From Curvibacter sp. (GTDB lineage: Bacteria > Pseudomonadota > Gammaproteobacteria > Burkholderiales > Burkholderiaceae_C), in the NCBI GenBank assembly GCA_020621965.1, contig JAHRYV010000001.1, positions 62,001-126,000 of the forward strand: a stretch of 64,000 bases of DNA, read 5' to 3'. How positions within the stretch are numbered: the first letter of the stretch is position 1; each line of letters starts with the position of its first letter. The notes under the pieces are model-generated. The model did no database searches and was not told where the DNA came from. It saw only the letters and a list, made by a program, of their open reading frames with translations. Below, one piece after another: positions 2,898 to 23,032 of this stretch. The position numbers and the translations under genes are program-made.

Positions 2898-3977
2898 TCA
2901 GGCCGCTTCCTGGTAAAACGGCCCGGCGCTGCCCAGCACGCGCGTAGCCAGCGGCGCCACGGCGTTGTGGATGGAGGCGATGTGCTCGGGTGTGGTGCCG
3001 CAGCAGCCGCCGACGATGTTGACCAGGCCCTCGGACGCGAATTCGCGCAGCAGGCGGCTGGTGACCTCGGGCGTCTCGTCGAAGCCGGTCTCGCTCATGG
3101 GGTTGGGCAGGCCAGCGTTCGGGTAGCAGCTGATGTAGGTGTCGCTCGCCACACGCGCCAGCTCCTGGATGTAGGGACGCATCAGCGCGGCGCCAAGCGC
3201 GCAGTTCAGGCCCACGGCCAGGGGCTGGGCGTGACGCACGCTGTGCCAGAAGGCGGCGACGGTCTGGCCGCTGAGGATGCGGCCCGAGGCGTCGGTCACC
3301 GTGCCGCTGATGATGAGGGGCAGGCGCTCACCCGACTTTTCGAAGTACTCGTCGATGGCGAACAGCGCGGCCTTGGCGTTGAGGGTGTCGAAGATGGTTT
3401 CCACCAGCAGCACGTCGGCGCCGCCTTCGACCAGGGCCTCGACCTGCTCGTAGTAGGCCGCCCGCAGCTCCTCGAAGCTGGTATTGCGCGCACCAGGGTC
3501 GTTCACATCCGGGCTGATGCTCGCGGTCTTGGGCGTGGGGCCGAGGGCCCCGGCGACAAAACGCGGATGGTCCGGCGTGCTGTACTTGTCACAGGCCTCG
3601 CGCGCGATGCGGGCCGAGGCCAGGTTCATCTCGCGCGCCAGGTGGGCCATGTCGTAGTCGGCCTGGGCCACGGTGGTGGCGCCGAAGGTGTTGGTCTCGA
3701 CCAGGTCGGCGCCGGCGGCGAGGTAACCCTCGTGGATGTCGCGGATGATGTCCGGTCGCGTCAGCGACAGCAGCTCGTTGTTGCCCTTGACGTCCTTGTG
3801 GAAGTCCTTGAAGCGCCCGCCGGCCGCGCCGGGGCCGGCGTAACCTTCCCCGCGGTACTGGGCCTCGTTCAGCTTGAAGCGCTGGATCATGGTGCCCATG
3901 GCGCCGTCCAGGACGACGATGCGGCGGGCCAGGATACCGGGCAGGGCTTGGGCGCGGGTGTAGTGCAGCGGTTTCAT
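2898..3977 (-). CDS. metH: Methionine synthase, homocysteine S-methyltransferase half
   Basis: [44 protein letters not shown]...; C-terminal [15 protein letters not shown] zinc motif. Confidence 0.93.
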
Positions 3978-4047
3978 AGCCCTCCATTGTAGAAAGGCCG
4001 GCCGCGTTGCCTCGGATCGGCCGCAAAACCCGGGACAATAGCGGGCT

Positions 4048-4443
4048 ATGAAACACCTGATGCCCCAGGAAGCCTGGGCGTTCCTGCAGCAAGAGCCGGC
4101 GGCGCTGTTCATCGACGTGCGCATGGAGATCGAGTCCCTCTACGTCGGCCGCCCGCCCGGCGTGATCAACATCCCCTGGTACGAATACCCGGAACTCAAA
4201 CCCGATCCGGCGGCTTTCCTGGCCGCCGTCGCACGCGAGACCGGCGGCGACACGGCGCGCCCGCTGGTCCTGTTGTGCCGCAGCGGCAAGCGCACGCTGG
4301 ATGCCGGCCAGGTGCTGGGCCAGGCCGGCTACGCCCGGGTCTACAACGTGATGCACGGCTTCGAGGGCGACCTGAACGACGACTTCCGGCGCTCCACGCT
4401 CAACGGCTGGCGTTTCGACGGCCTACCCTGGGAGCAGATGTGA
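4048..4443 (+). CDS. Rhodanese-like domain protein
   Basis: FIDVRMEIE...[18 protein letters not shown], active-site CRSGKRT loop. Confidence 0.9.
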
Positions 4444-19975: not shown

Positions 19976-20323
19976 ATGGCCAGCCGCAACGAATTTGCAG
20001 AGTTTGTCATCGGGCAGATGGCCGGACTCGGCACCATTGCTGCTCGCCGCATGTTTGGCGGCCACGGCATCTACTGCGATGGGCTTTTCATCGCCATCAT
20101 CACGGGCGACAAGCTGTATTTCAAAGCCGATGCGCAGACGCAGGCCGACTTCGAGGCGCGCGGCCTGCCACGCTTCGGCTACAGCGCAGGCGGCAAGGCC
20201 GTGCAGCTGAGGTACTACGAGGCGCCCGCCGAGGTGTTCGACGAGCCGCAGGCCATGCGCGATTGGGGCCGGCTGGCGCTGGCCGCCGCCGTGCGCGCGC
20301 GCAAGCCGGCGCGCAAGAACTAG
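19976..20323 (+). CDS. TfoX/Sxy N-terminal domain protein
   Basis: EFVIGQMAGLGTIAARRMFGGHGIYCDGLFIAIITGDKLYFKAD. Confidence 0.9.
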   Translation: MASRNEFAEFVIGQMAGLGTIAARRMFGGHGIYCDGLFIAIITGDKLYFKADAQTQADFEARGLPRFGYSAGGKAVQLRYYEAPAEVFDEPQAMRDWGRLALAAAVRARKPARKN

Positions 20324-21570
20324 ACGATGCCTGCGTCGCGCAAGGCCGCAATGCGCGACGCATCCAGCCCCAGCTCGGCCAGCACCTCGTCGGTGTGCTC
20401 GCCCAGCACGGGCGCGGCGCGGCGCAGCACCGGCGGCGTGGACTGCAGGCGCAGCGGGCTGGCCACACTGCGGATGACGGGCACACCCTCGGCCGCCACC
20501 GCCTGCGGCGAGCGCGCCTGCTCGACGGCCAGGCCGCGCGCGCGCACCTGCTCGTCGGCAAACGCCTGGCCGATATCGTTGATCGGGCCGCAGGGCACGG
20601 CCTTGTCTTCCAGCAGGGTGATCCACTCGGCCGTGCTGCGGGTACGCGTCACGTCCATGAGGCGCGGCACCAGTTCCTCGCGGTGCTTGACCCGCTGCGG
20701 GTTGCTGGCGTAGCGCGCGTCGCGCGCCAGTTCGGGGCAGCCGGCCGCGTCGCAGAAGCGCGCGAACTGCCCGTCGTTGCCGATCGCCAGCAGCATGGCG
20801 CCGTCGCGCGTCGGGAAGTCCTGATACGGCACCAGGCTCGGGTGGCTGTTGCCCTGGCGCTGCGGCACCTTGCCGGTGTTGAGAAAACCACCGGCCTGGT
20901 TGGCCAGGATGGCCATGCCGACGTCGAGCAGGGCCATGTCGATGTGCTGGCCCTCGCCCGTGCGATGGCGCACTTCGAGCGCGGCCAGGATGGCGGTGGC
21001 AGCGTAGACGCCGGTGAAAAGATCGGTCAGCGCCACGCCCACACGCTGCGGGCCCCCGCCGGGCACGTCGTCGGGGCGGCCGGTGATGCTCATCATCCCG
21101 CTCATGGCCTGGATCATCAGGTCGTAGCCGGCGCGCTCGGCGTAGGGACCGTCCTGGCCGAAGCCGGTGACCGAGCAGTAGATGAGTTTCGGGTTGACGG
21201 CCTTCAGGCTCTCATAGTCCAGCCCGTAGTGCGCCAGGCCGCCGACCTTGAAGTTCTCCACCAGCACGTCGCTCTGCGCGGCCAGCTGGCGGATCAGCGC
21301 CTGTCCTTCGGGTTTGGCCAGGTCCACCGTGATGGAGCGTTTGTTGCGGTTGGCGGCTGTGTAGTAGGCCGCATGCCCGGTGTCCTGACCTTGCGCGTCC
21401 TTCAGGAAGGGCGGCCCCCAGTGACGCGTGTCGTCACCGGCACCGGGGCGCTCGACTTTCACCACATCGGCCCCGAGATCGGCCAGGATCTGCGCGCACC
21501 AGGGGCCGGCGAGCACGCGTGAGAGGTCGAGCACCTTGATGTGAGGAAGTGCGGATGGTTTGTCAGTCAT
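20320..21570 (-). CDS. CaiB/BaiF-family CoA-transferase
   Basis: LPHIKVLDLSRVLAGPWCAQILADLGADVVKVERPGAGDDTRHWGPP. Confidence 0.93.
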   Translation of the reverse strand: MTDKPSALPHIKVLDLSRVLAGPWCAQILADLGADVVKVERPGAGDDTRHWGPPFLKDAQGQDTGHAAYYTAANRNKRSITVDLAKPEGQALIRQLAAQSDVLVENFKVGGLAHYGLDYESLKAVNPKLIYCSVTGFGQDGPYAERAGYDLMIQAMSGMMSITGRPDDVPGGGPQRVGVALTDLFTGVYAATAILAALEVRHRTGEGQHIDMALLDVGMAILANQAGGFLNTGKVPQRQGNSHPSLVPYQDFPTRDGAMLLAIGNDGQFARFCDAAGCPELARDARYASNPQRVKHREELVPRLMDVTRTRSTAEWITLLEDKAVPCGPINDIGQAFADEQVRARGLAVEQARSPQAVAAEGVPVIRSVASPLRLQSTPPVLRRAAPVLGEHTDEVLAELGLDASRIAALRDAGIV

Positions 21571-21601
21571 GCTTCTGTCCTTCTTGCGGGTTTCTCGCCT
21601 G

Positions 21602-21675
21602 CCACATGGGCGCTTGCCGGGGGCCTCATAGGCGCTGCGCTTTGCCAAATCGGCCCCCGGCAAGCGCCCATGTGG
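21602..21675. repeat. Stem-loop A: 24-bp perfect inverted repeat with 26-nt loop
   Basis: CCACATGGGCGCTTGCCGGGGGCC / GGCCCCCGGCAAGCGCCCATGTGG around TCATAGGCGCTGCGCTTTGCCAAATC. Confidence 0.97.
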
Positions 21676-21717
21676 CGAGAGCAAGGTTTTCTTTTGGCAA
21701 GGCAAATACCTTTGCAG

Positions 21718-21793
21718 CCGAGAGGGGGAGCGGGTGGCGGCCGATTTGGCAAAGCGCAGCGCCTATGAGGCCGCCGCCCGCTCCCCCTCTCGG
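21718..21793. repeat. Stem-loop B: 25-bp near-perfect inverted repeat whose 26-nt loop is the exact reverse complement of loop A
   Basis: CCGAGAGGGGGAGCGGGTGGCGGCC / GGCCGCCGCCCGCTCCCCCTCTCGG (one mismatch) around GATTTGGCAAAGCGCAGCGCCTATGA. Confidence 0.97.
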
Positions 21794-21832
21794 CCGCCAC
21801 ATGACTCACGTCGAAACGAGTGCTACCAAACT

Positions 21833-23032
21833 TCAGTTCGCAAACGCCGCGATACCGGTCTGCGCGCGCCCCAGGATCAGCGCATGGATGTCGTGCGTGC
21901 CCTCATAGGTGTTGACCACCTCCAGGTTCACCAGATGGCGCGCCACGCCGAACTCGTCGGAAATGCCGTTGCCGCCCATCATGTCGCGCGCCAGGCGCGC
22001 CACGTCCAGCGCCTTGCCGCAAGAGTTGCGCTTGAGGATGGAGGTGATCTCCACTGCCGCCGTGCCTTCGTCCTTCATGCGGCCCAGACGCAGGCAACCC
22101 AGCAGGCCGAGGCTGATCTCGGTCTGCATGTCGGCCAGCTTCTTCTGGATCAGCTGGTTGGCCGCCAGCGGACGACCGAACTGCTTGCGGTCCAGCACGT
22201 ACTGGCGCGCACGGAACCAGCAGTCCTCGGCCGCGCCCAGCGCGCCCCAGGCGATGCCGTAGCGCGCCGAGTTCAGGCAGGTGAAGGGGCCCTTAAGCCC
22301 CTGCACGTCGGGGAAGGCGTTCTCTTCCGGGCAGAACACGTTGTCCATCACGATCTCGCCGGTGATGGAGGCGCGCAGGCCCACCTTGCCGTGCACGGCG
22401 GGGGCGGACAGACCCTTCATGCCCTTTTCCAGCACGAAGCCGCGGATCGGGCCGACGGCGCCGCTCTCGCTGACCTCCTTGGCCCAGACCACGAAGACGT
22501 CGGCGATCGGGCTGTTGGAGATCCACATCTTGCTGCCCACCATGCGGTAGCCGCCGGCGGTCTTGTAGGCGCGCGTGGCCATGGAGTTGGGGTCGGAGCC
22601 GTGGTCGGGTTCGGTCAGGCCGAAGCAGCCGATCCACTCGCCCGTTGCCAGCTTGGGCAGGTACTTCTGCTTCTGCGCCTCGGAGCCGAATTCGAAGATC
22701 GGGACCATCACCAGGGACGACTGCACGCTCATCATGGAGCGGTAGCCGGAATCGACACGCTCCACTTCGCGGGCGATCAGGCCGTAGGCCACGTAGTTCA
22801 GGCCCGGGCCGCCGTACTGCTCGGGAATGGTGGGGCCCAGCAGGCCCAGCTCACCCATCTCGCGGAAGATGGCCGGGTCGGTTTTCTCATGGCGGAAGGC
22901 CTCCAGCACGCGGGGGGCCAGCTTGTCCTGGCAATAAGCGGCAGCGGCGTCGCGCACCATGCGCTCGTCGGCGCTGAGTTGCTGATCGAGGAGGAAGGGG
23001 TCGTTCCAGTGGAAGGCGGCATTGGTGGCCAT
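21833..23032 (-). CDS. gcdH: Acyl-CoA dehydrogenase, glutaryl-CoA dehydrogenase-like
   Basis: [36 protein letters not shown]...[17 protein letters not shown]...[26 protein letters not shown]. Confidence 0.9.

Follow-up and report, generated by a model that had tools for sequence, protein, structure and literature searches.

A family of intergenic hairpins in Comamonadaceae with a conserved tip and locus-specific stems

A contig of Curvibacter sp. carries, between gcdH and a CaiB-type gene, two adjacent long hairpins, and the 26-nt tip of one is the exact reverse complement of the tip of the other. This arrangement raises the question of whether the tips work together as a contact between loops, or whether each hairpin is one copy of a repeat, and in that case what is preserved in it and on which strand. 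We approached this from the 64-kb stretch of DNA that contains the locus (the window) and from related genomes.

The paired hairpins between gcdH and the CaiB-type gene

Computation of inverted repeats recovered both hairpins and the exact complementarity of their tips, as described in the original prediction, and they are the sole near-perfect inverted repeats of at least 20 nt in the 64-kb window. Hairpin A (21601..21676) is a perfect 25-bp stem around a 26-nt core, its 25-nt arms (21601-21625 and 21652-21676) being 100% complementary on either side of the 26-nt loop; the perfect pairing had been recognized, with a length of 24 bp that can be counted as 25 bp. Hairpin B (21714..21797) had been given as a 25-bp stem with one mismatch; the stem is real, but its 29-nt arms (21714-21742 and 21769-21797, 93% complementary, around a 26-nt loop) pair over 29 bp with two mismatches. 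The location marked for the whole, 21602-21793, was right, with an actual extent of 21601-21797. The core X of hairpin A (TCATAGGCGCTGCGCTTTGCCAAATC, 21626..21651) lies on the plus strand, and the opposite strand, X', which is the presumed active one, is the minus strand; in hairpin B the core X (21743..21768) is the exact inverse, on the minus strand, and X' is on the plus strand. The inverted 34-bp GGCC-core-GGCC block that had been proposed is exact and is included in a 41-nt inverted repeat of 95% (21618-21658 and 21736-21776). Elsewhere in the window, a 25-nt inverted repeat of 84% (3966-3990 and 4035-4059) lies between seemingly diverging gene starts, both GCTATGAAAC.

Both neighboring genes are on the minus strand, in the order and direction that had been predicted: upstream lies gcdH, an acyl-CoA dehydrogenase of the glutaryl-CoA dehydrogenase type (21833..23032; PF02771, PF02770, PF00441), and downstream a CaiB-type CoA transferase of family III (20320..21570; PF02515). 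In the spacer between the hairpins (21677..21713), a GGTATTTGG-like stretch recurs at gcdH-CaiB in relatives, and inspection of the sequence identified no conserved promoter. The core is matched twice in the window against 0.03 matches expected per shuffled window, and each hairpin, whether folded as RNA or DNA, lies 8-10 standard deviations below its shuffles, which together exclude a chance origin. Several other genomes have the same doublet in the gap between these two genes, and this disposes of the concern that one hairpin might be an assembly artefact. The identity of an intrinsic terminator was considered and rejected, as these are GC-rich hairpins with no T run directly after either of them, in either direction, on inspection.

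The exact complementarity of the loops in the window is what favors a kissing-loop switch between hairpins A and B, or a long duplex of the A-loop with the B-loop, as the working structure. In minus-strand RNA folding the 221-nt region forms two separate hairpins at -157 kcal/mol, and a forced loop-loop duplex is 15-33 kcal/mol worse. Moreover, the tip has internal helices of its own that are backed by compensatory change, many loci hold a single hairpin, and in two diverged doublets (genomes G012 and G019) the loops are mismatched. We therefore regard such a switch as scarcely credible, and trace the complementarity of the loops to a single conserved core that is present twice, the second time inverted.

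Range of the family and anatomy of its tip and stem

The two hairpins are a doublet of a genuine, Comamonadaceae-specific family of intergenic hairpin elements. The suggestion that a conserved core inside variable stems marks a repeat family was borne out by copies across same-genus and wider genomes: about 170 distinct copies (171 hairpins, in which orthologues are not independent) were gathered from Limnohabitans, Rhodoferax, Curvibacter, Hylemonella and related genomes, at 1-15 per genome, with 2-15 in each of fourteen carrier genomes. In G000, the genome to which the window belongs (86% complete), another doublet, whose stems are different, separates an mmsA-type gene from a GMC-type oxidoreductase gene. 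Of 26 same-genus genomes, 13 have the core when up to 3 mismatches are allowed. At the same tolerance it turned up in 5 of the 126 genera sampled from its family, one of which (G155) has a weak match only, in a coding region and with no stem; none was found in the sampled genomes of other families, and many of the sampled genomes are MAGs. A scan of 85,488 species genomes gave at least 119 core stretches, those listed coming from Limnohabitans, Rhodoferax, Curvibacter, Hylemonella, other Comamonadaceae and Burkholderiales MAGs. Among the matches is one Akkermansia-labelled MAG, whose contigs titled Akkermansia muciniphila (L072, L104, L110 and L141) have Limnohabitans-type loci and which is probably mislabelled. 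There was no exact core match in 2.9 million viral contigs, no match in plasmids, and no full core match in plasmids, phages and viral contigs.

The 16-nt core sequence had no match in the texts of the literature searched, and the family is apparently undescribed, being set apart by description only from the Beta-proteobacterial repeat element (BRE; Hot et al. 2011, PMC3110155). The BRE is similarly 75-91 bp long, GC-rich, intergenic and beta-proteobacterial, including Comamonadaceae. However, it is >70% identical throughout and often tandem, in Bordetella, Delftia and Polaromonas (PMC3110155), in contrast to a core confined to 5 of 126 genera of its own family and missing from the sampled other families. 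On this comparison of descriptions rather than sequences, identity of the two is unlikely. A different GC-rich repeat (GAGACGCTTCGCGCCTCCCCCTCAAGGGGGCG...), possibly BRE-like, fills the gcdH-CaiB gap of one genome that has no hairpins there (L218, G001); its CTCCCCCTCAAGGGGG centre is absent from the window.

The unit has a length of about 76-84 nt, made up of a locus-specific stem, normally of 25-29 bp, and the 26-nt tip. Tip X, TCAKASGCGCTNCGCTTTGCSAMATC, is nearly invariant over the 171 distinct hairpins, an invariance that is overstated and partly built in, since the copies were collected by the core, in a main scan that put no constraint on four positions, among them the middle base of the triloop. 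On the X' strand, whose tip reads GATGTGGCAAAGCGNAGCGCCTCTGA, the layout is GAT-T-T-GGC-AAA-GC-GCA-GC-GCC-T-A-TGA, in which a GC-GNA-GC mini-hairpin, with a GNA-type triloop whose middle base is A, C, T or G, is accompanied by an AAA bulge and flanking G.A mismatches. Two tip pairs vary in a compensatory manner across the 171 hairpins, pair 4/23 being G-C or T-A and pair 6/21 G-C or C-G. Some core variants are genus-wide: position 12 is G in the window's genus and T in Limnohabitans, and C/G is found at 6/21 in g122. Mini-hairpins of the type d(GCGNAGC) are very stable as DNA, with the GCGAAGC DNA melting at 78 C (PMC4686876). The family resembles them in its GC-GNA-GC tip with any N, and differs in that this tip crowns a long natural stem and has the bulge and the mismatches beside it.

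The stem differs in sequence between loci while its pairing is kept: among 21 distinct same-genus hairpins, 94% of cells are paired and changes on both sides are seen at 23 of 30 stem pairs. The covariation score of the stem is 0.727, against 0.148 in shuffled and at most 0.117 in slid alignments, for a structure that was read from these same sequences. Its limit is sharp, with a mean pairing of 0.52 at position 29 and of only 0.16 one position further, at 30, and inspection of the nucleotides flanking it revealed no conserved base. Within the stem, G occupies positions 16-17 (counted from the tip, on the X strand) in 37-38 of the 46 representatives of loci, which are not fully independent; these positions lie about one turn of the helix beneath the first five pairs, which are conserved. 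Families of intergenic palindromes in bacteria usually have a conserved stem and a link to either a transposase or the termination of transcription; in this one the stem sequence is free, pairing and length are held, and the folded tip of one strand is kept almost letter for letter beside the same genes in different species.

The folded X' strand as the object of selection

When the hairpins are oriented by their tip, the mispairs in their stems are strongly one-sided, with 223 G.U/G.T against 46 A.C on the X' strand; read on the X strand, the same mispairs are 223 A.C against 46 G.T. The bias has the same direction in 27 of the 30 locus-orientation groups that show a difference. Both members of inverted doublets, which occupy opposite strands at a single locus, show it, the ratios of A.C to G.U on X' being 1/17 and 1/18 in the PPIase/U32 doublet, 0/21 and 4/7 in pcaF/DUF1841 and 1/22 and 1/14 in polA/thrB, which indicates that the bias follows the tip, and not the chromosome strand or the genes. 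From this asymmetry within inverted doublets it is apparent that the X' strand, folded as a single strand with its tip and stem, is what selection preserves at many fixed loci. The order of change among close orthologues agrees with what selection on a hairpin of the X' strand predicts: among the one-sided changes, wobbles on the X' strand prevail by 144 to 37 over the opposite kind, one-sided changes come first, and the share of two-sided ones grows with divergence.

One could instead suppose that the elements have no function, the palindromes being kept perfect by template-switch correction during replication and the core being homogenised by gene conversion. Compensatory transversions are as common as transitions, which is in keeping with this and suggests that correction between arms may contribute to the pairing, and the genus-wide core variants are likewise expected of it. 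However, the asymmetry of mispairs tracks the orientation of the tip even inside a single locus, a pattern that symmetric correction is unable to produce, and conversion would have to copy the tip yet spare the stem. One-sided changes precede two-sided ones in close relatives, ruling out instant correction of the arms as the sole cause of pairing. Absence of function is accordingly very improbable.

A one-strand fold of this kind is also known from integron attC sites, which are palindromic and variable and in which one strand is active as a folded hairpin, with conserved ends and a varying centre. Compared by anatomy alone, the present hairpins share with them the palindrome, the variable sequence and the single folded strand, but have the reverse layout of a conserved centre and a variable stem.

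Gene boundaries, turnover and a putative reader

The elements lie between genes, as called by a codon-usage script that gives approximate distances. About 16 gene pairs recur as hairpin sites, often the same pair in different species. Some of the neighboring genes were named by HMM and the names of others we presume from their sequence and general knowledge; the pairs include PPIase-U32 peptidase, pcaF/DUF1841, polA/thrB, hpaH-hpaI, trxB-rpmB, Orn/Lys/Arg decarboxylase/fabI, etfA-acyl-CoA dehydrogenase, GAPDH/GMC oxidoreductase, gcdH-CaiB, mmsA-GMC and others. Loci with converging genes have single hairpins only and those with diverging genes mostly doublets. Intact doublets are all inverted (37 examples at about 10 loci), and the only same-strand doublet, L181, includes a partial core. 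It is one of three polA/thrB copies (with L094 and L134) in which a half-core is fused to a second hairpin and looks like what is left of an additional unit after partial deletion.

The X' strand has no fixed orientation to the upstream gene. Among conserved single-hairpin loci, it is antisense to hpaH (mostly), gcdH, the decarboxylase and GAPDH genes, and sense to trxB (mostly), mmsA and the acyl-CoA dehydrogenase gene. The tip can also turn around in place, and inversion of the core, which had been raised as a point to check, was seen between species at two loci. At trxB-rpmB it is inverted in 3 of 12 species while the arms and flanks still align, and the tree of the trxB side needs at least 2 changes of tip orientation; the greater divergence of the arms at hpaH-hpaI makes the similar change there less certain. 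By eye, a separate canonical terminator of the PPIase gene precedes the first hairpin in the PPIase/U32 alignment, and promoter-like boxes (TGGGATAAT, TACAAT and TATAAT) stand between hairpin and gene at U32, thrB and rpmB.

These positions bear on whether the fold acts as RNA. The X' hairpin might function in transcripts arising by read-through or in antisense, as a structure concerned with processing or stability or associated with termination, to which a protein binds or which RNase III cuts. With an inverted doublet, transcription from either side would then be sure to yield an RNA that has one X' hairpin. The great excess of G.U over A.C on X', the appearance of one-sided wobbles before two-sided changes as in RNA helices, the very stable RNA folds and the copies between co-directional genes all fit such an element. 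Against it, the conserved single-hairpin loci are divided, X' being antisense to the upstream gene at several and sense at others; at PPIase/U32, polA/thrB and rpmB the hairpins appear by eye to come after a terminator or ahead of promoters; and Rfam matches were all below the gathering score, the sub-threshold ones being mostly of microRNA type and to the long hairpin. We consider the RNA element possible though doubtful.

The reading we prefer, with a probability of about 0.45, is that the hairpins are a positionally stable signal, REPIN-like in appearance, which is read in single-stranded or cruciform form by a putative factor. That such a factor would read them at the same places in many related genomes is suggested by a tip that is almost invariant on stems that differ yet remain paired. 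It would recognize the X' hairpin through the GNA triloop, the AAA bulge and the flanking G.A mismatches, and might also contact the G-C pairs about 12 bp below the tip, at stem positions 16-17. With less confidence, recognition may occur at the DNA level, on a single-stranded or cruciform-extruded hairpin; the lack of a fixed orientation to transcription, several copies that by eye follow a terminator and precede the next promoter or stand ahead of divergent promoters, the ability of the tip to invert at a locus and the exceptional stability of the GNA mini-hairpin as DNA all point this way. An inverted doublet would then present one X' hairpin on each strand. The fuller proposal, of chromosome-wide, strand-specific ssDNA or cruciform signals at gene boundaries, with a factor reading the GNA tip and a contact about 12 bp lower and inverted pairs giving one signal per strand, is put forward more tentatively. 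Tolerance of G.U is equally expected of an RNA hairpin, and the elements at gcdH-CaiB, hpaH-hpaI and etfA-acyl-CoA dehydrogenase are probably transcribed, given their co-directional neighbors, which also counts against recognition as DNA. A cruciform in particular would extrude slowly from GC-rich arms of 25-29 bp with a 26-nt tip. The family thus points to a putative reader of folded nucleic acid in abundant freshwater bacteria, and the cultured Limnohabitans strains 15K, T6-20, Bal53 and Hippo3 are where it can be hunted.

As part of the positionally stable signal we envisage that transposition probably dispersed the family in the distant past and that its copies now keep to fixed gene boundaries. 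At gcdH-CaiB, the copy is absent from 14 of 25 same-genus genomes and is dispensable, its scattered presence on the gcdH tree needing 4-6 gains or losses, which speaks against such a signal. A genome of another genus also has the element at this gene pair (L193). Occupied gaps mostly measure 143-154 nt where there is one hairpin and 255-279 nt where there is a doublet; one single-hairpin gap measures 542 nt. Unoccupied ones are mostly compact (1-69 nt) and lack recognizable shared flanks, which leaves the insertion ends unreadable. Two genomes (L222 and L223, from G010 and G025) have a single hairpin after gcdH in an unusually long intergenic region with more CTCAGCACTGA-type repeats.

Such patchiness, together with the sharply defined unit length, would also suit a non-autonomous mobile element of the REPIN type that is maintained because a transposase still mobilises it. 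The inverted doublets recall the 93% of REPIN doublets that are so arranged (PMC3116915), and three singles (L033, L042 and L050), which are partial fusions of two doublet members, partly resemble doublet deletion products. The predicted likeness to a REPIN double hairpin thus holds for the layout, and extends, in REPIN and REP doublets (PMC3116915, PMC3733652), to intergenic position, remnant-like singles, compensatory changes and GT wobbles in stems. It fails for membership, with no RAYT nearby and a different hairpin anatomy: REPIN stems are 5-13 bp of family sequence, whereas here they are 25-29 bp and locus-specific, the conserved part is the 26-nt tip, the loci are conserved and there are 1-15 copies per genome. 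RAYT-associated REPs are defined by a terminal GTAG (or CGTC) tag and a short stem (PMC3733652); this class was rejected on the normally 25-29-bp stems and flanks that show no conserved base on inspection. Around 34 Y1_Tnp genes there was no core with up to 6 mismatches, no model match and no copy of the element, and these genes occur with or without it. The loci are conserved and orthologous, and a search for recently moved stems gave no clear case, high cross-locus similarity mostly reflecting the same locus. With the absence of copies from viral contigs and plasmids, this makes ongoing mobilisation unlikely. The window's own genome has four Y1_Tnp genes (on C42, C45, C47 and C75; L059-L062), where nearly all relatives have one, and L059 is flanked by inverted repeats of its own (GGGGTCAGGTCTTGCA and AAAGGGGACAGATTTATTT).
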